A DNA stretch of 64,000 nucleotides, taken from positions 1 to 64,000 of the IMG/VR virus record IMGVR_UViG_3300023179_000053; one strand, given 5' to 3'. Below the pieces are notes generated by a model that did not search any database, was not told the origin of the DNA, and saw only the letters and a program-made list of their open reading frames with translations. How positions within the stretch are numbered: the first letter of the stretch is position 1; the number at the start of each line of letters is the position of its first letter. This document shows, piece after piece, positions 3,076-37,486 of the stretch. Both the position numbers and the translations under genes were made by a program. This stretch comes from a virus.

Positions 3076-4668
3076 TTATGACTTATAGCCCAGGGAGTTA
3101 ATAATCCCTTGTGGCAAGTAAACATTGGTCCAGAATGTCTTTTCAGGCTCAGACTTCTTCAACTCTTCAACCTGTTCATCATCTTCTGGATCAACACTCT
3201 TCTTCACAGCGCCAGCCTGAGCGAATTGCTCAACTTTTGCTGTTTGTTCCTCAAGAGCCTTCTCTGTTGCTTCCAACTTTTGAGAAAGTTCTTCTTTTTG
3301 AGTATCAATACTCTTAGCAACTTCATCAATCTTAGCAGCAACATTTGCTTCAACTTCAGCCTTAAGCGAAGTAGCAAAGTCATTAAGCTTTTGATCGATG
3401 ACGGAGCCCAGAGCTTCTTTCAGAATTTCAATATCCATTTCTTCCTCCATCTGATCATTTTTAACTTCGGCTTCAACTGAAGCTTCAGCTTGCTCGCTTT
3501 CATCAAGCGAATTATCTCCTGGCTGATCTGTAAGCCATGAGACAAACTTTTTAACTAGGGACAATTTTTCATTTTCTTTGTCAATAGTATTATCCATAGG
3601 TTTCATCATATCATACTTTTTATCCTGTTGCAATAAATCCGGTGTAACCATTAATCTTTCCTCCTCATTTAATTCATAATAAATATTATCTAAAAGAAAA
3701 TCTAACAGGTGGGCATCCGCATATTCTGGGTTATCAATTTCAATGCTTTCAATTTCTTCAAATAAAGCATCTAATAATTCATCTTTAATATTTTCTGCTC
3801 CAACTGACTTTTTAGCTCTCTCTTGCGAATTTCTGTATCTTTCCAAAAGCCTTCTACCTTTTGCAGCAAGCCTTGCAGCATCTGAGCGATCCTGAGGGAC
3901 CGGCTCGCCCCAAGCCGCTGCTGAAAGAGCAAGCCTTGTTGGTTTGCCATTTGGCTTTTTCATTGGACCAGATGGATTTGTAAAGAACCTTGTAAGGAAA
4001 GATCCTTTTCTGCGCATTTTCTCTGGAGTGTCTGCAGCCCCCTTGACACCTGGCTTTAAATTTGCCCCTTCTTTTTCTTTAAAATGCCTTCTTCCAGCAG
4101 CTGTTAATCCACCTTTAGGATCTTTAATTGGCTGTTTTTTTTCTAAATCCTCATCACTCTCAAGCGCATAGTTTAGCTCGCCATCATTATTTCTTTTAAT
4201 AAGATCAATAACTGCCACTGCATTTGCTGGGTTATCAACAAGACTTAACTCACCAAGATCATATTCTTTTATAACATGAATAGGTCTTCCATTATGCACT
4301 TTGTCTTGCATCATTTCCTTTTTAAGTATTTTACCGCCAATTGAAAATGCACGAAGCGTACCGTCAAGCACTTTTTGCCAAGTGCTTTCTGCACCTTTTG
4401 AAATATAAGCTTCAACTTGAATTGCATTGTACTCTTCGCCATCCGCGCCTTTAATTTTTATCGGCTTATAGCTAATAGCTTTACCAACAGCAATTGGCGC
4501 ATGCATTTCACGAATATTTCCTTGCCAGCTTTTAAATGCTAATAAAGATGCTTGAAAATCAACAACATCTCCAACTTTATCAATATTATCAGCTGTTGCA
4601 ATACCTGTAACAATTCTCTCTTCTTTTTTCACCATATCAATGGGAAAATTTAAATTAAAGTCAGTCAT
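3076..4668 (-). CDS. prohead protease (XkdF-like) fused to a DUF6321-like and scaffold-like coiled coil
   Basis: A 530-residue multidomain head maturation protein. Residues about 1-165 look like the phage serine protease family of XkdF/prohead protease: REMHAPIAVGKA carries the likely catalytic His, LRAFSIGGKI the likely Ser, and GELSLVDNPAN closes the domain. Residues about 180-290 hold GGLTAAGRRHFKEKEGA, MRRKGSFLTRFF and ALSAAAWGEPVP, a DUF6321-type block known from other phages. The last about 200 residues are acidic and helical with heptads (EALGS..., EELSQKLEATEKALEEQ) as expected for a scaffold. Protease self-release of a fused scaffold is an inference. Order portal, protease, capsid is canonical. 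Confidence 0.8.
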   Translation of the reverse strand: MTDFNLNFPIDMVKKEERIVTGIATADNIDKVGDVVDFQASLLAFKSWQGNIREMHAPIAVGKAISYKPIKIKGADGEEYNAIQVEAYISKGAESTWQKVLDGTLRAFSIGGKILKKEMMQDKVHNGRPIHVIKEYDLGELSLVDNPANAVAVIDLIKRNNDGELNYALESDEDLEKKQPIKDPKGGLTAAGRRHFKEKEGANLKPGVKGAADTPEKMRRKGSFLTRFFTNPSGPMKKPNGKPTRLALSAAAWGEPVPQDRSDAARLAAKGRRLLERYRNSQERAKKSVGAENIKDELLDALFEEIESIEIDNPEYADAHLLDFLLDNIYYELNEEERLMVTPDLLQQDKKYDMMKPMDNTIDKENEKLSLVKKFVSWLTDQPGDNSLDESEQAEASVEAEVKNDQMEEEMDIEILKEALGSVIDQKLNDFATSLKAEVEANVAAKIDEVAKSIDTQKEELSQKLEATEKALEEQTAKVEQFAQAGAVKKSVDPEDDEQVEELKKSEPEKTFWTNVYLPQGIINSLGYKS

Positions 4669-16599: not shown

Positions 16600-17244
16600 A
16601 TGCCTGAGCTGAATGCTTCAATCCCGCCTATTGAATGCTATGTGCGTGGGAACTTTCTAAGAAATCAACAAGACAGTCACAATCTCAAGTTCCCGTGCGT
16701 AATCTTCGGTGTAGCTTCAATCCCCGACAGAGCGCCCGTATTTCATTTTCTAATGGAAGATGGCGGGGTTTGGTGGAGAGCACCTATAAATGCGTTCTGC
16801 GCCCATCCAGACGCTCCAGAGGTAGATTTAAAAGACTTGGTGATGTGGAACAGCTTTTCGTCATATATCACCGTTACGGTCTTTGAGCACATGCGGGGTA
16901 TGGCAATGACATATATTGATCGTCATAAAAATAAAATTGACGGTAAATATATGTTTACCCTTGATTGGCATAGTCCTGATATTAATACAATCAATACGAA
17001 TTATTCCACAAATCCGGGTCAACACAAATGCGGTCATGTAATACAGAGAAAAGATGGGAATTATGCAATCCAACCAAACAACCGGGTTAGATTATGGGAT
17101 CCCTCATACACCACCAAGAAGGGAGAAAACTTAATAAACCGGTTAATTAATCAAACATTATGGGATGTTGAAGATGGGGATAAATGGATCACCTCAGATG
17201 ATGACAGATATGATTATGAAGTGGTGAATAATGATAATAATTAA
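16600..17244 (+). CDS. conserved-type phage hypothetical protein
   Basis: A 214-residue protein rich in Trp, Asn and Asp. Visible segments include PVFHFLMEDGGVWWRAPINAF near residues 46-66, TLDWHSPD and GQHKCGHVIQR. It has no recognisable catalytic motif, though several His and Asp could form a metal site. It is translationally coupled to the oxygenase gene (14-nt overlap), so the two may act together. Leaderless start. Confidence 0.6.
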   Translation: MPELNASIPPIECYVRGNFLRNQQDSHNLKFPCVIFGVASIPDRAPVFHFLMEDGGVWWRAPINAFCAHPDAPEVDLKDLVMWNSFSSYITVTVFEHMRGMAMTYIDRHKNKIDGKYMFTLDWHSPDINTINTNYSTNPGQHKCGHVIQRKDGNYAIQPNNRVRLWDPSYTTKKGENLINRLINQTLWDVEDGDKWITSDDDRYDYEVVNNDNN

Positions 17245-18165: not shown

Positions 18166-18488
18166 AACAAATCAATGTCTGCGACATTCTGAAAAGAAAA
18201 TCTTATACCCCGCCCGAATTTATGATCTATCCTTGTGCAAGAAATAATTATTTATATACCTAATCAATATTATTACTCTGTTAAACCGGCATTGTATACA
18301 CTATAAGTGGCGACTCGTCGCTTTAGGACCGTTATAGGGGAGCAGCGCATCGGACATTCGTTCGGTGCGTTGTTCTTTTCTGGCAACTTTTTTCCCCGCC
18401 CGATCTGTGCAAAAATTTGAGTATATATTTTATAAGGGTTAATTAACATTTTTGATATTGAACAATACCTCTGTCTCCCCCGGTCAAA
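18166..18488. other. non-coding lead-in to the GC-rich array
   Basis: No convincing gene. A CGCATCG/CGGTGCG hairpin (18346-18369) and a GCGAC/GTCGC pair near 18310 are visible. Base composition changes from AT-rich to GC-rich near 18.47 kb. Confidence 0.5.
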
Positions 18489-18526
18489 CGGGTGTACAAG
18501 CAGCACATAGCTGCCTTGTACACCCG
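18489..18526. repeat. E element 1
   Basis: Long hairpin: CGGGTGTACAAG pairs with its exact complement (12 bp) and inner CAGC pairs with GCTG. It precedes promoter repeat 1 by 27 nt. Confidence 0.8.
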
Positions 18527-18553
18527 CAAGTGTAGCCGTAATGCGATTCGCAG

Positions 18554-18583
18554 TTGAGTACACTTACTTGGGGTAATAGTAAG
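18554..18583 (+). promoter_or_regulatory. array promoter repeat 1
   Basis: TTGAGT, 17 nt, TAGTAAG. The repeat contains the inverted pair ACTTACT/AGTAAGT. Start codon is 84 nt from its first base. Confidence 0.65.
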
Positions 18584-18637
18584 TTGTTCTTTACCAACCC
18601 CAACCGAAACAGAAGTAGGTGGGAAAGGGGGAACGCA

Positions 18638-18904
18638 ATGTTCCTGTTCAACTATGTAATCGCAGTACGCACCGATGACGGTGTGGAGTTGCCATACCTG
18701 ATCAAGGAGAACGCACCGCACAGTGCGTACTCACTCATCGTGAAACTCATCAACCCAGACGGTTCAGTTGAGCCGAAGCAACAGGTGTTGAGTCTCGAAG
18801 GTATGGAGCGTGGTAAGGACTACTCTCTCTTTGAGAGCTGGGCTGAATACGACAAGGCTCTGACTCTGGAGAAGGTGTTCCGTCGCATGTTCAGCGGTCG
18901 CTAA
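18638..18904 (+). CDS. cassette 1 protein, unknown
   Basis: An 88-residue protein beginning MFLFNYVIAVRTDDGVELPY; AAAGGGGGAACGCA before the ATG gives a strong ribosome binding site, and longer in-frame readings would run into the promoter repeat. The first third is beta-like, the last third (SLFESWAEYDKALTLEKVFRRM) helical. No family recognised. GC-rich codon use as in the other cassettes. Confidence 0.65.
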   Translation: MFLFNYVIAVRTDDGVELPYLIKENAPHSAYSLIVKLINPDGSVEPKQQVLSLEGMERGKDYSLFESWAEYDKALTLEKVFRRMFSGR

Positions 18905-18916
18905 GACGCTGGATAG

Positions 18917-18952
18917 GGGGCGGGGTCGCAAGACCCCGCCCCTTCTTTTTTT
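18917..18952 (+). terminator. cassette 1 terminator
   Basis: 11-bp stem GGGGCGGGGTC with GCAA tetraloop, followed by TTCTTTTTTTT. Confidence 0.9.
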
Positions 18953-18958
18953 GTTTCG

Positions 18959-18998
18959 GTGGGCGGGCATGCTGCGTCTAGCCGACTTGCACGCCCAC
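18959..18998. repeat. E element 2
   Basis: Imperfect hairpin closed by GTGGGCG/CGCCCAC, GCA/TGC above one mismatch, apical TCTAGC. 25 nt before promoter repeat 2. Confidence 0.8.
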
Positions 18999-19023
18999 AA
19001 ACACGGTACAAGGTATCTCTCAG

Positions 19024-19053
19024 TTGAGTACACTTACTTCACCTGATAGTAAG
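19024..19053 (+). promoter_or_regulatory. array promoter repeat 2
   Basis: TTGAGT, 17 nt ending TGA, TAGTAAG; this copy has a TGA-TAGTAA extended -10 look. Confidence 0.65.
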
Positions 19054-19079
19054 GTGGTTGGCAGAAGGGAGGACTACCA

Positions 19080-19181
19080 ATGGACATCACCGTGTCTATC
19101 AGCGAGTACCTCGGCTACGGTATCACCGTCGCCGTGTTCGGCGCTGTGGTCATCGTGTCGTACCTGCGCAACAAGCGCTAG
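19080..19181 (+). CDS. cassette 2: 33-residue single-pass membrane peptide
   Basis: ATG at 19080 after GGGAGGACTACCA. The 33-residue product is MDITVSISEYLGYG followed by a hydrophobic stretch ITVAVFGAVVIVSYL and a basic end RNKR, i.e. one membrane helix with positive inside. It is the only open frame between this promoter repeat and the terminator that fits the other cassettes. Confidence 0.65.
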   Translation: MDITVSISEYLGYGITVAVFGAVVIVSYLRNKR

Positions 19182-19267
19182 TCCGTACACAGCAATAAGC
19201 ACCACTGGTCCACTACCCGAAGCATTGCCTTTGGGAGAAGGGAGAGAGATGAGAGTGCTCAGGGTGC

Positions 19268-19307
19268 GAGGGGGGCGAGCCGAAAGGCTCGCCCCCCTCT
19301 TTTTTTG
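19268..19307 (+). terminator. cassette 2 terminator
   Basis: 14-bp stem GAGGGGGGCGAGCC with GAAA loop, followed by eight T. Confidence 0.92.
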
Positions 19308-19315
19308 TCTTTTGC

Positions 19316-19354
19316 GTGGTGGGCATGCGTGCGCCTAGCCGGCTTGCACGCCAC
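19316..19354. repeat. E element 3
   Basis: Copy with outer pair GTGG/CCAC and apical GCGCCTAGCCGGCTTGC; 26 nt before promoter repeat 3. Confidence 0.75.
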
Positions 19355-19380
19355 TCCACACGGTGCATAGGTTCACTAGG

Positions 19381-19410
19381 TTGAGTACACTTACTCGGCG
19401 TGATAGTAAG
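19381..19410 (+). promoter_or_regulatory. array promoter repeat 3
   Basis: TTGAGT, 17 nt ending TGA, TAGTAAG. Confidence 0.65.
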
Positions 19411-19453
19411 TTAGTTCTCGTGGTGGCGAGCCAACACGCCAGGGAGGTACACC

Positions 19454-19759
19454 ATGGCACAAGGCAAGCAAGCACACCCGACCGCACGGCTCAAGGGCAC
19501 GGCGGTCACACCAGCGGTCGCAACGACCGCACAAGTGGTGGTTGCCCCAGCAACGACCACACCGCAAGTGGTGGCTGCCCCAGCAGTCACTCCGCAAGCG
19601 CCGAAGCGCAAGGCTCAGCCTGCGCCGAAGCGCAAGCGCCAGCGCAAGCCAATGAGCGAAGCGACGAAGCGCAAGATTCGTCGTGCTCACCGCAAGCGCA
19701 CTCGTCGCAATCGAATCCGCAAGGCACTCCGCCGAGCGGTTCGGTTCGGCAAGAAATAA
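19454..19759 (+). CDS. cassette 3: highly basic histone/protamine-like protein
   Basis: A 101-residue protein. Residues 1-50 are Ala/Pro/Thr/Val-rich and disordered-looking; residues about 50-101 are dominated by Lys and Arg (PKRKAQPAPKRKRQRK, then KRKIRRAHRKRTRRNRIRK). The composition matches nucleoid-condensing proteins such as actinobacterial HU tails or histone H1-like proteins. Ribosome site AGGGAGG. A role in host or phage DNA binding is inferred from charge only; an RNA-binding role is equally possible. Confidence 0.7.
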   Translation: MAQGKQAHPTARLKGTAVTPAVATTAQVVVAPATTTPQVVAAPAVTPQAPKRKAQPAPKRKRQRKPMSEATKRKIRRAHRKRTRRNRIRKALRRAVRFGKK

Positions 19760-19782
19760 ACCCACCGCTTGCCACCACGGGG

Positions 19783-19820
19783 GCGGGGCGGGGCGAAAGC
19801 CCCGCCCCGCTCCTTTTTTT
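19783..19820 (+). terminator. cassette 3 terminator
   Basis: 12-bp stem GCGGGGCGGGGC with GAAA loop, then CC and seven T. Confidence 0.92.
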
Positions 19821-19830
19821 GTCTTTTGAA

Positions 19831-19866
19831 GGGCGGGCATGCGTGCGCCTAGCCGGCTTGCACGCC
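19831..19866. repeat. E element 4
   Basis: GGGCGGGCATGC left arm, apical GCGCCTAGCC, right arm GGCTTGCACGCC; almost identical to E5. 28 nt before promoter repeat 4. Confidence 0.8.
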
Positions 19867-19894
19867 TTTTCACCCGATACACTCACTTACTCGG

Positions 19895-19924
19895 TTGAGT
19901 ACACTTACTTGGCGTAATAGTAAG
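19895..19924 (+). promoter_or_regulatory. array promoter repeat 4
   Basis: TTGAGT, 17 nt, TAGTAAG. About 79 nt from this repeat into the leader are nearly identical to cassette 7, including a CACGC-aagta-GCGTG hairpin. Confidence 0.65.
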
Positions 19925-19995
19925 TTGTTGAGTACCGCCAAGCACCTAGTCACGCAAGTAGCGTGGGGTAAGCAAGGTGGTGGAGGGAATACGCA

Positions 19996-20301
19996 ATGGC
20001 AATGGAAATCATCACCGCCATCGTTCAGGCATTGGCAAGCCTGAACCCCAACAAGCCCCAAGTGGGCGTGTGGTTGCCCGAAGCGACCTACACGAACGCA
20101 GGCACGGTGCTTGACGACAAGGCGTTCAACCGCCACTACGCCGACTGGTACAGCCGTATCGTTTCGGTGGCAGGGCAAGTGAATGTCGTGTGGGTTGCCG
20201 AAATCCGCATTGACGAAAACGGCATCAACACGGTGGCGGAGTGTTATCTCAGCCCTACCGCAATGGTTGAGCCAACCGTAATACTCGGCGTGCGCAAGTA
20301 G
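19996..20301 (+). CDS. cassette 4 protein, unknown
   Basis: A 101-residue protein with a hydrophobic N-terminal helix (EIITAIVQALASL), then PQVGVWLPEATYTNAGTVLDD and a beta-rich C-terminal part (VNVVWVAEIRIDENGI). GGAGGGAATACGCA precedes the ATG. No known family is recognised. The leader is a near copy of that of cassette 7 although the proteins are unrelated. Confidence 0.65.
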   Translation: MAMEIITAIVQALASLNPNKPQVGVWLPEATYTNAGTVLDDKAFNRHYADWYSRIVSVAGQVNVVWVAEIRIDENGINTVAECYLSPTAMVEPTVILGVRK

Positions 20302-20331
20302 GCACGCCAGCGCCGAACCTCCCACGGCGCA

Positions 20332-20369
20332 GGGGGCGGGGTCGCAAGACTCCGCCCCCGCTTTTTTTT
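20332..20369 (+). terminator. cassette 4 terminator
   Basis: 12-bp stem GGGGGCGGGGTC (one mismatch) with GCAA loop, then GC and eight T. Confidence 0.9.
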
Positions 20370-20377
20370 GCCTTTTG

Positions 20378-20418
20378 AAGGGCGGGCATGCGTGCGCCTA
20401 GCCGGCTTGCACGCCCTT
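20378..20418. repeat. E element 5
   Basis: AAGGGCG/CGCCCTT closing pairs with the same inner sequence as E4; about 26 nt before promoter repeat 5. Confidence 0.8.
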
Positions 20419-20443
20419 TCACCAGATACACTTACTCTCTGAG

Positions 20444-20473
20444 TTGAGTACACTTACTTTATCTAATACTAAG
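20444..20473 (+). promoter_or_regulatory. array promoter repeat 5
   Basis: TTGAGT, 17 nt, TACTAAG (one change from the consensus). Confidence 0.6.
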
Positions 20474-20527
20474 GTAATACACATCAAGTCGTGCTGAACA
20501 GAAGTAGGTACGAGATTGGGGAATGTA

Positions 20528-20932
20528 ATGGATACGGATAAACTTCGGATAATCCTGATGAGTGTCTACTTGATACTCAAAGAGCGTTACAACAAGTTGG
20601 GTGAAATCATTGAGAATGCCCCACCCGCACCAGAACACGCTGAGAAAGCGGTGGACTTGGTGCTTCACTGCGTTACCGCCATTCAGGAAGTTCATCATCA
20701 CCGAGATGATTTGGTCATTCACCTCAATGAGGGTATGGTCAACGAAAAAGTACGGTTCCAGCCAGACAGTCAGCAGGCATTGGCTCTGATAATGGGGTTG
20801 CGTGAAGTCAACATCACCATCACCAAACTAGCAGAACTGTTGCCGTTGGCGCACCGAGATGCCAACTGGTTGCGAACGACTGGAAATGTTGTAAACCACG
20901 GCATTCAGGAGTATGTCGATGGACTGAAATAA
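20528..20932 (+). CDS. cassette 5 protein, all-helical, unknown
   Basis: The largest cassette gene, 134 residues, starting at the ATG at 20528 after GGGGAATGTA. It is predicted helical throughout (LRIILMSVYLILKERYNKLGEII, HAEKAVDLVLHCVTAIQEV, TITKLAELLPLAHRDANWL), resembling a four-helix bundle. An HHHRD motif occurs near residue 61. Function unknown. Confidence 0.68.
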   Translation: MDTDKLRIILMSVYLILKERYNKLGEIIENAPPAPEHAEKAVDLVLHCVTAIQEVHHHRDDLVIHLNEGMVNEKVRFQPDSQQALALIMGLREVNITITKLAELLPLAHRDANWLRTTGNVVNHGIQEYVDGLK

Positions 20933-20938
20933 GAAGTC

Positions 20939-20973
20939 GGGCGGGGGGCGAAAGCCTCCCGCCCTCTTTTTTT
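20939..20973 (+). terminator. cassette 5 terminator
   Basis: 11-bp stem GGGCGGGGGGC with one G-U pair and GAAA loop, then a T-run. Confidence 0.9.
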
Positions 20974-20981
20974 GTGATCTG

Positions 20982-21021
20982 GTGGGCGGGCGAGCTGCGA
21001 CTAGCTGTCTTGCACGCCCAC
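20982..21021. repeat. E element 6
   Basis: GTGGGCG/CGCCCAC with inner GAGCTGCGACTAGCTGTC; 25 nt before promoter repeat 6. Confidence 0.8.
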
Positions 21022-21046
21022 TCACACGCTACACTTACTCACCAAG

Positions 21047-21076
21047 TTGAGTACACTTACTTGATGTGATAGTAAG
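21047..21076 (+). promoter_or_regulatory. array promoter repeat 6
   Basis: TTGAGT, 17 nt ending TGA, TAGTAAG. The leader has a strong GCGGTGCT-cggat-AGCACCGC hairpin at 21091-21111 just before the ribosome site. Confidence 0.65.
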
Positions 21077-21126
21077 GTGTTATTCACAAGGCGGTGCTCG
21101 GATAGCACCGCAGAAAGGGGAGCGTC

Positions 21127-21432
21127 ATGCTACCCAACAGCGAGAATAAAGCAGTTGAGAAATTGGTCAACCTGCTTGCGAATACAGGCTACACCGTCAA
21201 CCAAAAACGTTGGGATGATGGGGCAGAAACAAAAGAAGTTCAGATTCCGCTCGGAACTGACTTCATGTTTCTGAAACTCTATCGCCCGTCAGAAAACGAC
21301 AGTTGGGTGCTGTCGGAACTGACTACTGGCAACGAACTTGCCATGATGTGGCAACCAACGCCGTATGAAAATGCGGTGAAGCAGATCGTTCATGAAATCA
21401 TTGACGGTCGCTTAGTCAAAACAAAACGCTAG
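21127..21432 (+). CDS. cassette 6 protein, unknown
   Basis: A 101-residue alpha/beta protein: N-terminal helix (KAVEKLVNLLANTGYTV), central strands (EVQIPLGTDFMFLKLYRP, SWVLSELTTGN), C-terminal helix (ENAVKQIVHEIIDGRL). AAAGGGGAGCGTC lies before the ATG. A leader hairpin could regulate translation. No family recognised. Confidence 0.65.
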   Translation: MLPNSENKAVEKLVNLLANTGYTVNQKRWDDGAETKEVQIPLGTDFMFLKLYRPSENDSWVLSELTTGNELAMMWQPTPYENAVKQIVHEIIDGRLVKTKR

Positions 21433-21444
21433 GAGGAGCGCAAG

Positions 21445-21476
21445 GGGAGCGGGGCGAAAGCCCCGCTCCCTTTTTT
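21445..21476 (+). terminator. cassette 6 terminator
   Basis: 11-bp stem GGGAGCGGGGC with GAAA loop and six T. Confidence 0.92.
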
Positions 21477-21485
21477 GCTTTTTGC

Positions 21486-21523
21486 GTGGTGGGCGTGCTG
21501 CGCCTAGCCGGCTTGCACACCAC
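21486..21523. repeat. E element 7
   Basis: Outer GTGGT/ACCAC with apical GCGCCTAGCCGGCTTGC; 26 nt before promoter repeat 7. Confidence 0.75.
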
Positions 21524-21549
21524 TTCTCCTGACACACTCACTCACTAGG

Positions 21550-21579
21550 TTGAGTACACTTACTTGGCGTAATAGTAGG
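21550..21579 (+). promoter_or_regulatory. array promoter repeat 7
   Basis: TTGAGT, 17 nt, TAGTAGG. Leader nearly identical to cassette 4. Confidence 0.62.
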
Positions 21580-21648
21580 TTGTTGAGTGTCGCCAAGCAC
21601 CTAGTCACGCAAGTAGCGTGGGGTAAGCGAAGCGATAAGGGGAATGTA

Positions 21649-21852
21649 ATGTCGCTATTCCAAAAAGGCGATAAGGTCACATTCATTCGTGGTAAGCGCA
21701 AAGGCGAGACTTGGGTGGTTGAGTTTCATAACTACCACGGCGTTGGCGTTTATCCACTCAAAGGCGAAACCCAACACAAGCGACCAATCGTCGGTATGCT
21801 GGCAGACGCAAACGACCTGATACTCACCGAGCGTGTGTTGACGGTCGTGTAA
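21649..21852 (+). CDS. cassette 7: small KOW/SH3-like beta-barrel protein
   Basis: A 67-residue protein MSLFQKGDKVTFIRGKRKGE..WVVEF, whose KGD-V-F-RGK-KGETWVV pattern looks like a KOW or SH3-type barrel that binds RNA or DNA. GGGGAATGTA precedes the ATG. Assignment rests on pattern only. Confidence 0.6.
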   Translation: MSLFQKGDKVTFIRGKRKGETWVVEFHNYHGVGVYPLKGETQHKRPIVGMLADANDLILTERVLTVV

Positions 21853-21898
21853 TCCCCCCAAGACACCCTTGTGGCTAGGGTGTGACGCTATGCGTCAG

Positions 21899-21943
21899 AG
21901 TGGCGAGCAGGAGTGGTGTCCTGCTCGCCACTTTCTTTTTTTG
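21899..21943 (+). terminator. cassette 7 terminator
   Basis: 14-bp stem AGTGGCGAGCAGGA with 6-nt loop and TTTCTTTTTTTG. A second small hairpin TGACGC-tat-GCGTCA lies just before it. Confidence 0.9.
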
Positions 21944-21950
21944 TTTTTTT

Positions 21951-21990
21951 GCGGGTGGGCGAGCTGCGCCTAGCCGGCTTGCACACCCGC
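21951..21990. repeat. E element 8
   Basis: GCGGGTG/CACCCGC closing pairs, AGC/GCT inner pairs, apical GCGCCTAGCC; 25 nt before promoter repeat 8. Confidence 0.8.
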
Positions 21991-22015
21991 ACACACGGCA
22001 CATAAACTCTCTCAG

Positions 22016-22045
22016 TTGAGTACACTTACTTGATACAATACTAAG
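22016..22045 (+). promoter_or_regulatory. array promoter repeat 8
   Basis: TTGAGT, 17 nt, TACTAAG. Confidence 0.6.
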
Positions 22046-22094
22046 TTGTTGAGTGCCAGCCGAAACCCAAGTAAGTTGGCAGGGAGAAATAGCA

Positions 22095-22436
22095 ATGCCA
22101 AAAGTCAAACTCAGCGACCTTGTGAAGTCTTTTCAGTTCACACGAAAGGCGCAAAAAGTAAAGGAATACAAGGGAGTAACGGTGAACGGCAAGAGCCCGC
22201 ATCGTTGGGCGGAATACGCTAGAAAGCACCACACAGGTGACTTGCTTGCTTGCCAATTCATCTTTCTTGGTGCGATTAGTCAGCGCACCGTAGACACTTT
22301 CGTTCAGAAAGTGCGTGATGAAATTGATACTGACCAGAAAATTGCCCTACCCACCGAGCGTGAGTTGGAGCAAGCCCAGGAGCAAGACCGTATCGGTACA
22401 GGGTTGCCGACCAAGTTCTGGGTGAAGGGAGTGTAA
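22095..22436 (+). CDS. cassette 8 protein sharing N-terminus with cassettes 9-11
   Basis: A 113-residue protein from the ATG at 22095 (GGGAGAAATAGCA). Its first residues MPKVKLSDLVKSF match the start of the cassette 9-11 family (K-V-x-L-S-x-I/L), but the remainder (YKGVTVNGKSPHRWAEYARKH, TVDTFVQKVRDEI) is different. It may be a hybrid or a distant member. Function unknown. Confidence 0.65.
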   Translation: MPKVKLSDLVKSFQFTRKAQKVKEYKGVTVNGKSPHRWAEYARKHHTGDLLACQFIFLGAISQRTVDTFVQKVRDEIDTDQKIALPTERELEQAQEQDRIGTGLPTKFWVKGV

Positions 22437-22442
22437 GAAGTT

Positions 22443-22476
22443 GGGCGGGGGCGAAAGCCCCCGCCCTTTTTCTTTG
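22443..22476 (+). terminator. cassette 8 terminator
   Basis: 10-bp stem GGGCGGGGGC with GAAA loop and a T-rich tail. Confidence 0.92.
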
Positions 22477-22480
22477 TCTT

Positions 22481-22520
22481 GCGGGTGGGCGAGAGGCGCT
22501 TAGCCAGCTTGCACGCCCGC
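22481..22520. repeat. E element 9
   Basis: GCGGGTG/CGCCCGC (a G-U in the stem) with apical GCGCTTAGCC; 25 nt before promoter repeat 9. Confidence 0.8.
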
Positions 22521-22545
22521 TCACACGGGGCATAGACACAATGAA

Positions 22546-22575
22546 TTGAGTACACTTACTTGACCTAATAGTAAG
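22546..22575 (+). promoter_or_regulatory. array promoter repeat 9
   Basis: TTGAGT, 17 nt, TAGTAAG. Confidence 0.65.
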
Positions 22576-22630
22576 TTGTTGAGTGCTGACGGGGACGCAA
22601 TTCCCTACCACCCCGCAGTGGAGAAAAGCA

Positions 22631-22930
22631 ATGGCAAAAGTCAAACTCAGCGAGATTCAGAATCAGCTGGTCAAGCGTGGGCGAGATGCCTATCAGAACC
22701 CCGAACTCGAAGCGGAACTGATGACACTCGACCCGTCAGACCCCGATTCGGCAATCTCGTTTGACGAAGCGCAATTCACGGGAGACCCCGACAGTGACGC
22801 ATACACGAACCACAAGAACTTGTGGCGTGCTCGTGTCGCTTCGTGCGCCGAGCGTGTGTTGCCCGAAGCGGAACTCACGATTCAGTGGACTCGTGAGACC
22901 CACGAGATGATTGTCTCGTTCCGCAAGTAA
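22631..22930 (+). CDS. cassette 9 protein, member of a three-gene family
   Basis: A 99-residue acidic protein: LSEIQNQLVKRGRDAY near residues 6-21, LDPSDPDSAI near 33-42, TNHKNLWRARVAS near 59-71 and a final strand EMIVSFRK. Cassettes 10 and 11 share this pattern throughout, so the three arose by duplication. The family's role is unknown; the basic helix with acidic centre could suit protein or nucleic-acid binding. GTGGAGAAAAGCA precedes the ATG. Confidence 0.7.
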   Translation: MAKVKLSEIQNQLVKRGRDAYQNPELEAELMTLDPSDPDSAISFDEAQFTGDPDSDAYTNHKNLWRARVASCAERVLPEAELTIQWTRETHEMIVSFRK

Positions 22931-22948
22931 TACCCCGCAATGGGAATC

Positions 22949-22979
22949 GCCCCGCCGAGTGACACGGCGGGGCTTTTCT
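22949..22979 (+). terminator. cassette 9 terminator
   Basis: 9-bp stem GCCCCGCCG with 7-nt loop, then TTTTCTC. Confidence 0.85.
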
Positions 22980-22980
22980 C

Positions 22981-23019
22981 GCTGGCGTTCTTGATGCTAT
23001 TCGCATCTTGACCGCCAGC
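22981..23019. repeat. F element 1
   Basis: Second hairpin type: GCTGGCG/CGCCAGC closing, GATGC/GCATC inner stem, 5-nt loop. Found only after cassettes 9, 10 and 11. Confidence 0.75.
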
Positions 23020-23069
23020 CGCCCTGGTAGCGCTCTCTCGATCTCTTTAGTACACATTTCTCAACGTAA

Positions 23070-23108
23070 GCGGGCGTACAAGGAGCGCTTAGCTCCCTTG
23101 TACGACCG
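23070..23108. repeat. E element 10
   Basis: GGGCGTACAAGGAGC pairs with GCTCCCTTGTACG; the inner GAGC/GCTC replaces CAGC/GCTG of E1, a compensated change. 26 nt before promoter repeat 10. Confidence 0.8.
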
Positions 23109-23134
23109 GCTCGCTGGTTCATACCCATAGGCAG

Positions 23135-23164
23135 TTGAATACACTTACTCGGCGCAATAGTAAG
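23135..23164 (+). promoter_or_regulatory. array promoter repeat 10
   Basis: TTGAAT, 17 nt, TAGTAAG. Confidence 0.6.
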
Positions 23165-23226
23165 GTATTGAGTGTTGATGGGCGCTGAGTAAATCAGCAC
23201 TAGACCCCCACAACAGGAGAAACAGA

Positions 23227-23520
23227 ATGGCTAAGGTCAGTCTGTCGGCAATACAGTCACAACTCGTCAAGCGTGGGCGTGATGCCTACGAGAACGAGGC
23301 GCTAGCCGAGGAGTTGCGAGGGCTTGACCCGAGCGACCCCGACAGCGCCATCAAGTTCGCTGACGCTCAGGGCGACCCCAACGATGAGAAATACACCAAC
23401 CACAAGAACTTGTGGCGTGGGCGTGTCTCGTCGGTCGCATCGCAACTCGGTATCCCCGATGGGGCGTTGAGCATCATCTGGACATTCTCGGGTGAGATGG
23501 TCGTGACCTACAAGCGCTAG
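23227..23520 (+). CDS. cassette 10 protein, same family as 9 and 11
   Basis: A 97-residue protein with LSAIQSQLVKRGRDAYEN, LDPSDPDSAIKF, TNHKNLWRGRVSSVASQL and a C-terminal strand SGEMVVTYKR, aligning end to end with cassette 9. AGGAGAAACAGA precedes the ATG. Duplication followed by divergence is clear; the function is not known. Confidence 0.72.
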   Translation: MAKVSLSAIQSQLVKRGRDAYENEALAEELRGLDPSDPDSAIKFADAQGDPNDEKYTNHKNLWRGRVSSVASQLGIPDGALSIIWTFSGEMVVTYKR

Positions 23521-23537
23521 ACATAGGGCGCAGAGAG

Positions 23538-23566
23538 TGGGCGAGGCGCAAGCCTCGCCCATTTCT
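23538..23566 (+). terminator. cassette 10 terminator
   Basis: 10-bp stem TGGGCGAGGC with GCAA loop and TTTCTC. Confidence 0.85.
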
Positions 23567-23567
23567 C

Positions 23568-23606
23568 GCTGGTGTTCTAGATGCTAATCGCATCTTGACC
23601 ACCAGC
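23568..23606. repeat. F element 2
   Basis: GCTGGTG/CACCAGC with inner GATGC/GCATC; differs from F1 by a matched change in the closing stem (GCG/CGC to GTG/CAC). Confidence 0.75.
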
Positions 23607-23664
23607 CTTTGGGTTTCCCTATCTCTCTCATTTTTAATACTCATTTTCTAATAGTTTTGTTTAT

Positions 23665-23704
23665 GTGGGTGGGCGAAGCAGCGCTTAGCTGATTGCACAC
23701 CCAC
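23665..23704. repeat. E element 11
   Basis: GTGGGTG/CACCCAC with inner GCAGCGCTTAGCTGA; 25 nt before promoter repeat 11. Confidence 0.8.
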
Positions 23705-23729
23705 TCTCTCGGTACACGCATTCGCATAG

Positions 23730-23759
23730 TTGAGCGCACTTACTTGGCATGATAGTAGG
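23730..23759 (+). promoter_or_regulatory. array promoter repeat 11
   Basis: TTGAGC, 17 nt ending TGA, TAGTAGG; the most divergent copy. Confidence 0.55.
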
Positions 23760-23810
23760 TTGATACATGTGAACGGCGAGCCGCCAACAAACACGAAAGA
23801 GAGAACAACT

Positions 23811-24089
23811 ATGAAAGTCAGACTTTCCGACATTCAGAGTCAACTGGTGAAGCGTGGGCGTGACGCATTCCAAGACCCAATCTTGGAAGCAGGCTTGCTC
23901 TCGCTCAATGCCGACAACGAAGACGAAGCATTCGTCTACGAAGCAGGCAAAGGCAATCCCGAAGATGAGAACTACGGTTCGCACAAAAACAAGGTGCGGG
24001 CTCGTATCGTCTCAGTGGCAGAACAGAACAGTCTGTCGGTGTCCATTATGTGGACATTCGCAGGCGACTGTGTAATCACACTGAAATAA
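23811..24089 (+). CDS. cassette 11 protein, same family as 9 and 10
   Basis: A 92-residue protein with LSDIQSQLVKRGRDAFQD near the start, GNPEDENYGSHKNKVRARIVS in the middle and the closing strand GDCVITLK. It lacks the LDPSDPDSAI wording of its two relatives but keeps their layout. AAAGAGAGAACAACT precedes the ATG. It is the last gene of the array and the least GC-rich copy. Confidence 0.7.
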   Translation: MKVRLSDIQSQLVKRGRDAFQDPILEAGLLSLNADNEDEAFVYEAGKGNPEDENYGSHKNKVRARIVSVAEQNSLSVSIMWTFAGDCVITLK

Positions 24090-24114
24090 CAACCAGGCTT
24101 GCCGTTCGCAGGAT

Positions 24115-24142
24115 AAGGCGCACCGAAAGGTGCGCCTTTTTC
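24115..24142 (+). terminator. cassette 11 terminator
   Basis: 10-bp stem AAGGCGCACC with GAAA loop and TTTTT. Confidence 0.9.
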
Positions 24143-24144
24143 CG

Positions 24145-24181
24145 TTGGTGGTCAAGATGCTAGGCGCATCTTGACCACCAA
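24145..24181. repeat. F element 3
   Basis: Perfect 16-bp hairpin TTGGTGGTCAAGATGC with a TAGGC loop, the best-paired F copy. Confidence 0.8.
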
Positions 24182-24239
24182 TTTTTTCAATGTTTTTGTC
24201 TCTATAAATTTAATACAAATTTCTAATGCCTTTGTTTGG

Positions 24240-24280
24240 CGGGTGCTCCAAATAAAAATGCATTTTTATTTGCACACCCG
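24240..24280. repeat. E element 12 (orphan), with 24-bp palindrome
   Basis: CGGGTG/CACCCG close a hairpin whose inside is a perfect AT-rich palindrome (24249-24272) with TGCA at its centre. No promoter repeat or cassette gene follows. It marks the right end of the array. Confidence 0.75.
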
Positions 24281-24283
24281 TGT

Positions 24284-24974
24284 TTTTTTATTTATTTATT
24301 CCTTTACTTTAATCTATATTCCTAATTACATCTATGCATTTGTTTATGTATTTCAAATTGTAATTAGTTTTGACTATGCGCACACAAGACAAATTTTTTT
24401 TGGGCATACCGTGGTATGCCAAAGGCTGTGGTGAATGCTGTTTAGTTCTCTCCGGCTATTGCCATACAGATCTATACATTACCCCGCACATTATTATCTA
24501 GGTAATAACAACGGTGTAATCATTACGGCAAACACCACGTATTAAAATTTCTAAATCCCTCGATAGACCTCCACTCAAATTCCTGTTTAGTTCTACCGAT
24601 TAAAAGGGTGATGTATCTGGCAATAAAAAAATCGGGATTTATTTGTTTCTTTCAGTATATGTAAATGCCTTTATGTACTTTTAGACACCCTAATGGGATA
24701 TATATACGTTCTCAAATTATGAGCACTTCACAATTGCACACTTTTTATCTGTTTTTACCCCATTTTTCCCTACTTTTCCCCACTTTTTACCACTTTTTAC
24801 TATGTTTTTGCCTATTTTTATAGTTTTTTTTGTGCCGATTTTAGGCAAAATTTTTTTGGAATATGCCTATTTCTAAGCATATTCCTTTATTTTTGGCTAC
24901 AAATGTTCCACGTGGAACGCTGAACTACAATCTATTTTAATATATACAACGAGATTGGAGTGGTCGTCTCTTAC
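24284..24974. other. AT-rich non-coding region, possible partition/origin/terminus site
   Basis: No gene is seen. The plus-strand array and the minus-strand small-gene block converge here. It contains a GGCATACC-GT-GGTATGCC palindrome (about 24403-24420), a strongly strand-biased pyrimidine tract with repeated CACTTTTTAC words (about 24740-24850) and the GTTCCACGTGGAAC palindrome. Confidence 0.6.
24905..24918. promoter_or_regulatory. parS-like palindrome GTTCCACGTGGAAC
   Basis: A perfect 14-bp palindrome with half-site GTTCCAC, the core of bacterial ParB-binding parS sites (known variants such as TGTTTCACGTGAAACA share the CACGTG centre). Only one copy was noticed in the window. Confidence 0.6.
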
Positions 24975-36478: not shown

Positions 36479-37486
36479 CTAACCTTTACTAGTCCATACT
36501 TGTTGGGCAAGCAGGCTCATTGGGAAATCAGTCAATCTATTTTCACGCAGTTTCATATTGTAACGGCTCACAATTAAATATGGCAATGATGTGAAAGTTA
36601 CAGTTTGACCACTACTGATCATTGCTTGTGCTTGTGCAATTACTAATGAAGGACTGCCAAGCTTTGTCAATGCTTCAGTCAATCGTTGCTCATTAACTTT
36701 CTTACCGTAACGGTTATAAATACAAGAAACGGCAGAAATCATTTGGTCTCTAAACATTTCTTTATTGTCAGGATAGGAATTTTTAAGAGTACGCAATGCC
36801 TTTTCCAATACTGCTGGACCGGCATTAGTATAAACTTTACGAACTGCCGCAACACAACGAATTCTATTTGGACCAGGTGCAAAATGTACTTCTGCGCCAA
36901 TTTTAGCAACTACATTTGAAATACCAATAGCAGTTTCATCACCGGCAACAATGCCTGCCTTAAAGATTTGAGCAGGAGTTGGCTTGGTATGTTCTTTATT
37001 AGTTAGTGCAAAGATATGCGCTTCGTCTTCAAGTGTAAGACCAAAGTAAACCAATGCGTTTACATTTGCATCTTTCATTCCCATTTCAAGCATTGCGTGA
37101 TAACGATGGCTACCATCAATGATTGCCAATGTATTATCTTCACGCATTGAACAAGTAATAACACCAAGCAAATCCGGATCAAAATTCTTTACGATTCGAT
37201 TGATTTTTGCTTTCAATGGACTGCGTTGATATTGATAATCAACAAACATATCAGAGATTTTGATTAAAGACGACATCTTTGAAATGTGTCCAACATCAAA
37301 GTTAGCGCCAAGAGATTCGTGTTTTGTAACAATTGGAACATTCAAACTCTTTGCCGCCTCCTTAATTTGTTTATTGTTTTTTGGTTTAACAGGAACAGTT
37401 TTGTTTTTCACTGTTTTCTCCTTTTTGTTGTTGTTAATTAATTGCTTTGATATTTTCATGCTATTTTTCTTACTAGGCGTAGCCAT
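36479..37486 (-). CDS. ParB/sulfiredoxin-fold protein (DUF6551-like)
   Basis: A 335-residue protein with a Lys-rich N-terminus. Residues about 85-135 (MFVDYQYQRSPLKAKINRIVKNF then IDGSHRYHAMLEMG) give the ParB/Srx nuclease-like fold with its GxxR/SHRxxAM signature. The C-terminal 200 residues are helical. It differs from chromosomal ParB, which has an HTH domain and CTP motif. Such phage proteins may act as nucleases or regulators. A parS-like palindrome exists at 24905 but no direct link can be shown. Confidence 0.7.
   Translation of the reverse strand: MATPSKKNSMKISKQLINNNKKEKTVKNKTVPVKPKNNKQIKEAAKSLNVPIVTKHESLGANFDVGHISKMSSLIKISDMFVDYQYQRSPLKAKINRIVKNFDPDLLGVITCSMREDNTLAIIDGSHRYHAMLEMGMKDANVNALVYFGLTLEDEAHIFALTNKEHTKPTPAQIFKAGIVAGDETAIGISNVVAKIGAEVHFAPGPNRIRCVAAVRKVYTNAGPAVLEKALRTLKNSYPDNKEMFRDQMISAVSCIYNRYGKKVNEQRLTEALTKLGSPSLVIAQAQAMISSGQTVTFTSLPYLIVSRYNMKLRENRLTDFPMSLLAQQVWTSKG

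Follow-up and report, generated by a model that had tools for sequence, protein, structure and literature searches.

Within the window analysed here, the stretch of 64,000 nucleotides (nt) that makes up positions 1 to 64,000 of the virus record IMGVR_UViG_3300023179_000053 (93,813 bp, from an uncultured phage), eleven small plus-strand genes encoding proteins of 33-134 amino acids (aa) follow one another in an island of high guanine plus cytosine (G+C) content between positions 18,487 and 24,283. Each gene lies in a complete unit of its own, consisting of a hairpin (E), a 32-nt promoter repeat (B), a leader with a Shine-Dalgarno site, the gene and a terminator. We consider it probable (roughly 75%) that this island is the collapsed direct terminal repeat of a tailed phage related to the Streptomyces cluster BE phages, carrying an array of independently transcribed early takeover genes. 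Across related phages, the two parts of the unit evolve by different rules: the genes come and go, whereas the promoters of an array, about a dozen per phage, change their spelling jointly, a pattern of concerted evolution of promoters. It is this combination of gene turnover with a promoter spelling private to the phage and shared throughout its array that a specialist would not expect. Many small proteins able to disable bacteria come from early takeover regions, whose gain and loss of genes is poorly understood.

Gene turnover and phage-private promoters

A terminase search of viral contigs gave 382 relatives, 80 of which were kept, and the islands of 13 phages were reached through the oxygenase gene to the left of the island, the gene family F0 and the neighbouring gene at 16600. 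An island with raised G+C content was present at the matching position in all 13 of the 13 related phages found. The comparison set comprised 11 arrays, that of the window included, in which 100 cassettes were delimited; their genes were called by a simple rule (start codon, Shine-Dalgarno site and length), and a few calls may be wrong. L136 is a short end, and L164 and L165, in which the island is present in a looser layout, were excluded from the counts. These last two, more distant phages (81-91 kb) show hairpins and GTGTAATATTAC-type repeats instead of a tidy promoter set.

The first-pass annotation of this DNA had described mostly unrelated proteins in a fixed non-coding frame, and the wider comparison agrees with it, as the 100 cassettes fall into 56 families, 42 of them singletons, and the frame is kept. 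Only F0 (genes 9-11 of the window, already recognised as a three-member family among the eleven) occurs in every relative for which the 3' end of the array is available. Its 2-4 copies are paralogues and usually lie at that end; the F0 profile also matches L161, L164 and L165, where an initial pass had missed the family or had not been applied. Gene order differs among close relatives, with F2 before F3 in the window and F3 before F2 in L134, and F13 changed its position between L159 and L160. Relatives with the same eleven genes in the same order were looked for, but the phages differ in both genes and order, and the regulatory part is copied onto unrelated genes, in line with the earlier proposal that the array grew by whole units. 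In the mechanism that we favour, each gene would sit in an insulated unit (an optional box A, then E, promoter B, leader, Shine-Dalgarno site, gene and terminator), and genes would be gained, lost and reordered one unit at a time.

Each phage has promoter and E sequences of its own, and these are uniform across its array. Over 36 nt, mean promoter identity is 0.79 for pairs from a single phage but 0.56 for pairs from different phages, and the nearest neighbour of a promoter belongs to the same phage in 94% of cases (9% expected); these values are descriptive and do not amount to a formal test, since cassettes from a single phage are not independent samples. A promoter's sequence is not tied to the gene behind it, since its identity between phages is practically the same for cassettes of one gene family (0.57) and of different families (0.56). 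The clearest case is that of L134 cassette 9 and L053 cassette 12, whose proteins are 86% identical and whose promoters are 56% identical. The spelling shared within a phage is TTGAGTACACTTACT in the window, TTGAGTACACATTCTCAATGCC in L134, GGTTTAGTACGGTTTCTTGG in L053 and L135, TTTTAGTACCCATTTT in L162 and TTGAGTGCGTTTCTGTGCC in L161. With a regulatory sequence that is shared within the array but changes from one phage to the next, every phage possesses its own promoter set. When 2.9 million viral contigs were scanned for exact matches, the L053 type turned up in two records only and the L134 type in one. An exact search of the viral contigs with a 15-nt promoter word returned 43 single matches lacking array context, which we attribute to chance, and a further promoter scan found none but is uninformative, as its pattern had a fixed gap where the gap length varies. 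In the literature searched, which lies outside most subscription journals, there was no report of concerted evolution of phage promoters.

If a single cassette had recently been duplicated in tandem within each phage, the promoters would be alike by recent descent, and the paralogous F0 genes at the 3' end would suit such a history. However, most array genes are unrelated, and orthologues stand under different promoters, as in the pair from L134 and L053 just mentioned. This model is contradicted by the data and was rejected; we regard it as extremely improbable.

The likeness within a phage reaches beyond the promoter. Within a single phage, the regulatory units ahead of unrelated genes are about 70-86% identical over 160-207 nt, and the shared stretch runs from the preceding terminator or box A and often stops close to the start codon; in cassettes 4 and 7 of the window it amounts to 86% over 187 nt ahead of unrelated genes. 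Between phages, alignments of cassettes of the same family span the gene, and several start only in the leader. Within phages, conservation peaks at the box by TTnAGT (0.87) and declines in the spacer and leader, and the spacer between E and the promoter is much less alike (0.55).

We infer from these patterns that the regulatory part, from E to the start codon, may be kept alike within a phage by recombination between repeats, by selection to fit one trans-acting factor, or by both. It is quite possible, at somewhat less than even odds, that the promoters are uniform mainly because one fast-evolving phage regulator, either an early activator or a shut-off repressor, binds A and B. In this scenario, the differences between phages would resemble superinfection-immunity groups. 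Conservation peaking so sharply at the promoter box suggests that selection to fit a common factor plays a part as well; A and B have sequence in common at a distance of ~100 bp, the conserved spacer letters go beyond what the host RNA polymerase alone would be expected to need, and the rarity of the L053 and L134 types also favours such a regulator. However, none was found among the proteins scanned, and leaders and E are partly homogenised too, which selection on an operator leaves unexplained.

Alternatively, and we offer this more tentatively, the uniformity could come mainly from recombination between repeats with no selection by a factor, through gene conversion or unequal exchange by the UvsX-like recombinase of the phage, including exchange between the copies of the terminal repeat. 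The window phage encodes a UvsX-like recombinase, a Cas4/RecB-like exonuclease and RuvC, so copying through repeats by general recombination is possible, and the long tracts (terminator, E, promoter and leader) common to unrelated genes in one phage argue for it. Conservation, however, is not even over the tracts but peaks on the promoter box and E, with the poorly conserved spacer between them. One could speculate further that each lineage holds a private 'key', a fast-changing trans-acting factor matched to about a dozen homogenised A, E and B elements, so that arrays are re-keyed together and E serves as the structured site for unit copying. We consider this combined version unlikely; if true, early arrays would be re-keyed like the immunity groups of temperate phages, but in virulent ones.

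Hairpin E, the promoter and the units of the array

A covariance model of E, run over the whole record, found 11 plus-strand copies, one in each cassette, and three copies in inverted orientation (E'), one after each of the last three terminators, with none outside the island. E can be folded in 100 of 100 cassettes (median folding z-score -3.4; 83 below -2). For 36 copies drawn from four phages, pairing holds in 90% of cells, compared with 79% when shuffled and 25-47% when slid, and two-sided changes occur in 10 of the 14 pairs (57 cells, against 16.7 when shuffled). One position holds a G.A mismatch that is retained in most copies, and E therefore has a strand. The earlier estimate of 25-28 nt between E and every promoter is near the measured distance of about 24-27 nt before TTGAGT. 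Since this spacing also holds in cassette 1, which has no terminator ahead of it, we link E to the promoter and not to the terminator. E is a real structured element showing strong covariation, and a DNA cruciform, a binding site and a read-through RNA are candidates for its mode of action.

The promoter repeat occurs in 11 copies in the window, all on the plus strand and all inside the island, and scans of the 93.8-kb record confine the TTGAGTACACTTACT-type promoter to the island. The pattern CTTACT-N9-AGTAAG, allowing up to two mismatches, gives 14 matches in the window where 2.9 would be expected. Little of the element is kept across phages beyond TTnAGT-like letters and TAnnnT 20-21 nt later. 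The repeat had been read as TTGAGT, 17 nt and TAGTAAG; its TTGAGT part stands, but after comparison between phages and with the leaderless genes of L162 the -10 register was replaced by TAAGKT, 20 nt after TTGAGT. Several L162 genes have their ATG 6-7 nt after TATAGT, as expected of leaderless messages, and this places the -10 at TAnnnT (TAAGKT in the window). In the reverse-complemented L162 sequence, apparent leaderless genes at 4357, 5981, 7555 and 8085 stand beside cassettes that have a normal leader and the same promoter. The unit is also larger than first described, as many cassettes of the relatives, and the last ones of the window, have an additional box A (TTTARTACACATTYTC) ahead of E; it resembles the left half of B, has no -10 and precedes B by ~100 bp, E lying in the interval.

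A hairpin ahead of each gene, in an early region within a terminal repeat, also recalls phage N4, and E might accordingly be a hairpin promoter for a virion-borne RNA polymerase. This model was likewise rejected and is most unlikely to hold: in L162, the leaderless genes begin 6-7 nt past the -10 of B and not at E, and the 4,647-aa protein of the record matches tape-measure families over its first 2,018 aa, the part scanned.

An integron-like array, in which E is an attC-like folded single-strand site and the units are moved by a site-specific recombinase, would agree with the single E in each cassette, its fixed orientation, its compensatory changes and constant G.A mismatch, and the unit-wise shuffling. 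We nevertheless judge it improbable. No tyrosine recombinase, serine recombinase or Y1 transposase scored above the cut-off in any of 12 records, and an IntI-type tyrosine recombinase was found in 0 of 12, with 14 of 14 controls detected; this empty search speaks against an integron-like mover. When the attC cores RYYYAAC and GTTRRRY were looked for, no GTTRRRY was seen in the E alignment, whose conserved parts are TAGC and TTGCAC. Moreover, the fixed spacing between E and the promoter is needless for a recombination site, and the cassettes have promoters of their own.

All eleven cassettes of the first-pass annotation were recovered where it had placed them, each with a promoter, leader, Shine-Dalgarno site and terminator; the scan rates 10 of the 11 terminators as intrinsic. 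Coordinates are plus-strand unless marked, and those of E and E' come from the covariance model. An A-type box (TTTGAGTATATATTTT; 18417-18432), also present in L134, L159 and L160, precedes cassette 1, in which E (18487-18528) is followed by promoter B (18554-18585; TTGAGTACACTTACT ... TAAGTT), gene 1 (18638-18904; 88 aa, family F2) and terminator 1 (18915-18944). Cassette 2 comprises E at 18958-18999, B at 19024-19055, a gene for a 33-aa membrane peptide of F3 at 19080-19181 and the terminator at 19268-19299. The third gene (19454-19759) encodes a Lys/Arg-rich, histone-like protein of 101 aa (F5), with E (19314-19356) and B (19381-19412) before it and its terminator (19779-19814) behind. Gene 4, of F4 (101 aa; 19996-20301), lies between E and B at 19828-19870 and 19895-19926 and a terminator at 20332-20359. 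No relative was found for genes 5 (134 aa; 20528-20932) and 6 (101 aa; 21127-21432); the former has E at 20377-20419, B at 20444-20475 and its terminator at 20939-20964, and the latter has them at 20981-21022, 21047-21078 and 21442-21473. In cassette 7, E (21484-21525) and B (21550-21581) precede a 67-aa gene (21649-21852) whose product is KOW-like by eye and uL24m-like in Pfam, below threshold, with the terminator at 21897-21934. Cassette 8 holds E (21950-21991), B (22016-22047), a 113-aa gene of F6 (22095-22436) and a terminator (22443-22466).

The three F0 cassettes close the array. Gene 9 (99 aa; 22631-22930) follows E at 22480-22521 and B at 22546-22577, and behind its terminator (22949-22973) comes the first minus-strand E' (22980-23020; 28.2 bits). 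Cassette 10 begins with an A box (23046-23061) and continues with E (23069-23110), B (23135-23166), gene 10 (97 aa; 23227-23520) and a terminator assigned from the sequence (23539-23562), whose short U-tract falls below the rule of the scan; the second minus-strand E' lies at 23567-23607. In cassette 11, an A box (23633-23648), E (23664-23705), B (23730-23761), gene 11 (92 aa; 23811-24089) and a terminator (24115-24138) are followed by the third minus-strand E' (24143-24183). Finally, an A box with no promoter B after it (24209-24224) precedes an A+T-rich, E-like hairpin, recognised in the sequence, that closes the array (24240-24281) and is the same in L134/L052 and L053.

Codon usage and a probable terminal repeat

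The island had been noted by eye as far richer in G+C than its flanks, and a composition scan confirmed this: its G+C content is 0.52-0.59, against mostly 0.30-0.39 in the flanks and ~33% in the genome, and at third codon positions it is 0.64, compared with 0.24. AGA and AGG make up 3% of the Arg codons in the island and about 75% outside it, and TTA makes up 1% of the Leu codons, compared with 35% outside. The phage encodes transfer RNAs (tRNAs) for Arg(tct) and Leu(taa), fitting the codons that island genes avoid; an Rfam scan returned tRNAs only. The bias goes clearly in the same direction in 10 of the 11 arrays and hardly so in L135, which offers little sequence, and the terminal repeat of the BE phage Mildred21 shows the same direction for AGR. 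The island genes would thus use host-like codons and be expressed before the phage's own tRNAs, and this avoidance of the codons read by those tRNAs points to early host takeover, as in the terminal module of phage SPO1.

By terminase, the best cultured relatives (41% at the amino acid level) are the Streptomyces cluster BE phages (Stanwilliamsviridae), which are siphoviruses. In the window, the island is followed by an operon with an HNH gene and tRNA-Thr and then, on the other strand, by genes for a glycosyltransferase, ribonucleotide reductase, portal, protease and capsid. Mildred21 has the matching order and orientation beside its terminal repeat (glycosyltransferase 31% and ribonucleotide reductase 29% identical). 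Its direct terminal repeat measures 10,818 bp, and 20-25 open reading frames are predicted per repeat in the group (PMC5764925); in a pair of related BE phages, gene sharing is otherwise even and the terminal repeats are the exception (PMC10690885). Our contig crosses the island and its ends fall within the structural module, as would be seen if the island were a terminal repeat collapsed in assembly.

The BE repeats resemble the island also in their gaps, most of which in Mildred21 contain a terminator, a palindrome and a promoter. The palindrome GTCCGGGCCGGACA has 28 matches in Mildred21 (0.13 expected) and GGCGCCCGGCGCCA has 30 in Coruscant (0.07 expected), with 0 cross-matches between the two phages. 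Similarly, GTCCGGGCCGGAC-type sites occur in Mildred21 and GGCGCCCGGCGCC in Coruscant, neither being present in the other, and MindFlayer, Yaboi and Enygma have other versions of the palindrome. In many gaps of Coruscant (L168, 1-11300), a second dyad, AGATG-N7-CATCT, lies between the GGCGCC palindrome and the promoter.

Several results weigh against reading the island as an early takeover region in a terminal repeat. Neither the F0 profile nor the E model has a match in the Streptomyces repeats (L167-L169 for F0), so the unit plan is common to them in position and layout and not by detectable homology. The island proteins had no match above threshold in Pfam or PHROGs and no known function, and the predicted structure of F0 (predicted local distance difference test score 88) has no match in the PDB. 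No regulator of the promoters turned up among the proteins scanned, and a sigma-70 scan of the island gave no plus-strand match, for which reason different recognition or an activator is likely. The terminal location, early timing, takeover function and promoter activity are predictions from the sequence. Lsr2, whose gene would be expected of BE-type repeats, had no match among the island proteins either. In the viral structure library, the best match of F0 is an uncharacterised protein (expectation value 1e-3); F0 had no tblastn match in phage records, and a search of such records at the DNA level found none either. A match of the terminase in a genome collection, considered as a guide to the host, yielded only two contigs of metagenome-assembled genomes ('archaeon' and a Flavobacteriales bin), and these unrelated labels are uninformative.

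Other features of the record may be mentioned. In the non-coding stretch to the right of the island, a parS-like palindrome (TGTTCCACGTGGAACG; 24904-24919), with a similar site in L053, lies beside a pyrimidine-rich run of TTTTTACC/TTCCCC-type near-repeats (24734-24817), also seen in L053, which is possibly an origin or terminus region; a ParB-like protein is encoded at 36479-37486 (PHROG 1033). To the left, the protein encoded at 16600-17244 has counterparts, labelled PurM or hypothetical, among cyanophages and Pelagibacter phages, in a phage otherwise nearest to Streptomyces phages. The single 4,647-aa frame (positions 75112-89055 of the record; L146/L147) is about twice as long as the tape-measure gene of Mildred21.

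Known systems with a similar layout

The array had first been labelled a set of moron genes. Such genes have a promoter and a terminator of their own, as predicted here too, but they are single extras absent from relatives, whereas the position of the array is kept in all relatives as a dedicated region. This label is probably not the best one; collinearity with the BE phages and codon usage favour instead a terminal-repeat region for early host takeover. Integron cassettes and their attC sites are likewise tandem, of one direction and provided with a folded site each, but here no integrase was found and each cassette has its own promoter.

A closer parallel is found in T4-type phages, in which Arbiol et al. 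in 2010 (a study cited in PMC4177764) reportedly described the PeSL (promoter early stem-loop) as a mobile regulatory cassette. There, too, a stem-loop and an early promoter stand between small accessory genes and are tied to module shuffling, and the island, with a predicted stem-loop and promoter between unrelated small genes, has the PeSL layout. However, the window phage is not T4-type and its promoter does not follow the sigma-70 consensus. To our knowledge, a private, homogenised promoter set per phage is not part of the PeSL description.

Terminal takeover regions offer the other parallel. The host-takeover module of SPO1, with which we group the pre-early terminal repeat of T5 as a near system, is a terminal region of ~12 kb with 26 mostly small early genes, strong promoters and ribosome sites (PMC6873191); its genes are arranged in operons and no repeated hairpin-promoter unit is described there, whereas the island genes stand in single units. 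In halovirus HF2, intergenic repeats carry promoters in many gaps of one virus (PMC8707807), but this virus is archaeal, and its relatives strongly conserve both the repeats and their placement, whereas the island shows the opposite.

The BE repeats (Mildred21, Coruscant, MindFlayer, Yaboi, Braelyn and Enygma) likewise have small same-strand genes, raised G+C content, distinct codons, a collinear place, and gaps with a terminator, a repeated palindrome private to the genus and a promoter. They differ in that their palindrome is short and near-perfect, while E is a 40-nt imperfect hairpin with covariation; their -10 (TAGACT/TAAGCT) is similar across genera, unlike the island promoters, and their gene content looks more stable. 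As these cultured phages have the same layout and a private element per lineage, the pattern can be tested in laboratory strains. Moreover, the frame of E, promoter and terminator is a handle with which to mine metagenomes for takeover genes whose proteins lack detectable homologues. Taken together, the layout of the island is a variation on terminal-repeat takeover regions and PeSL-like cassettes.

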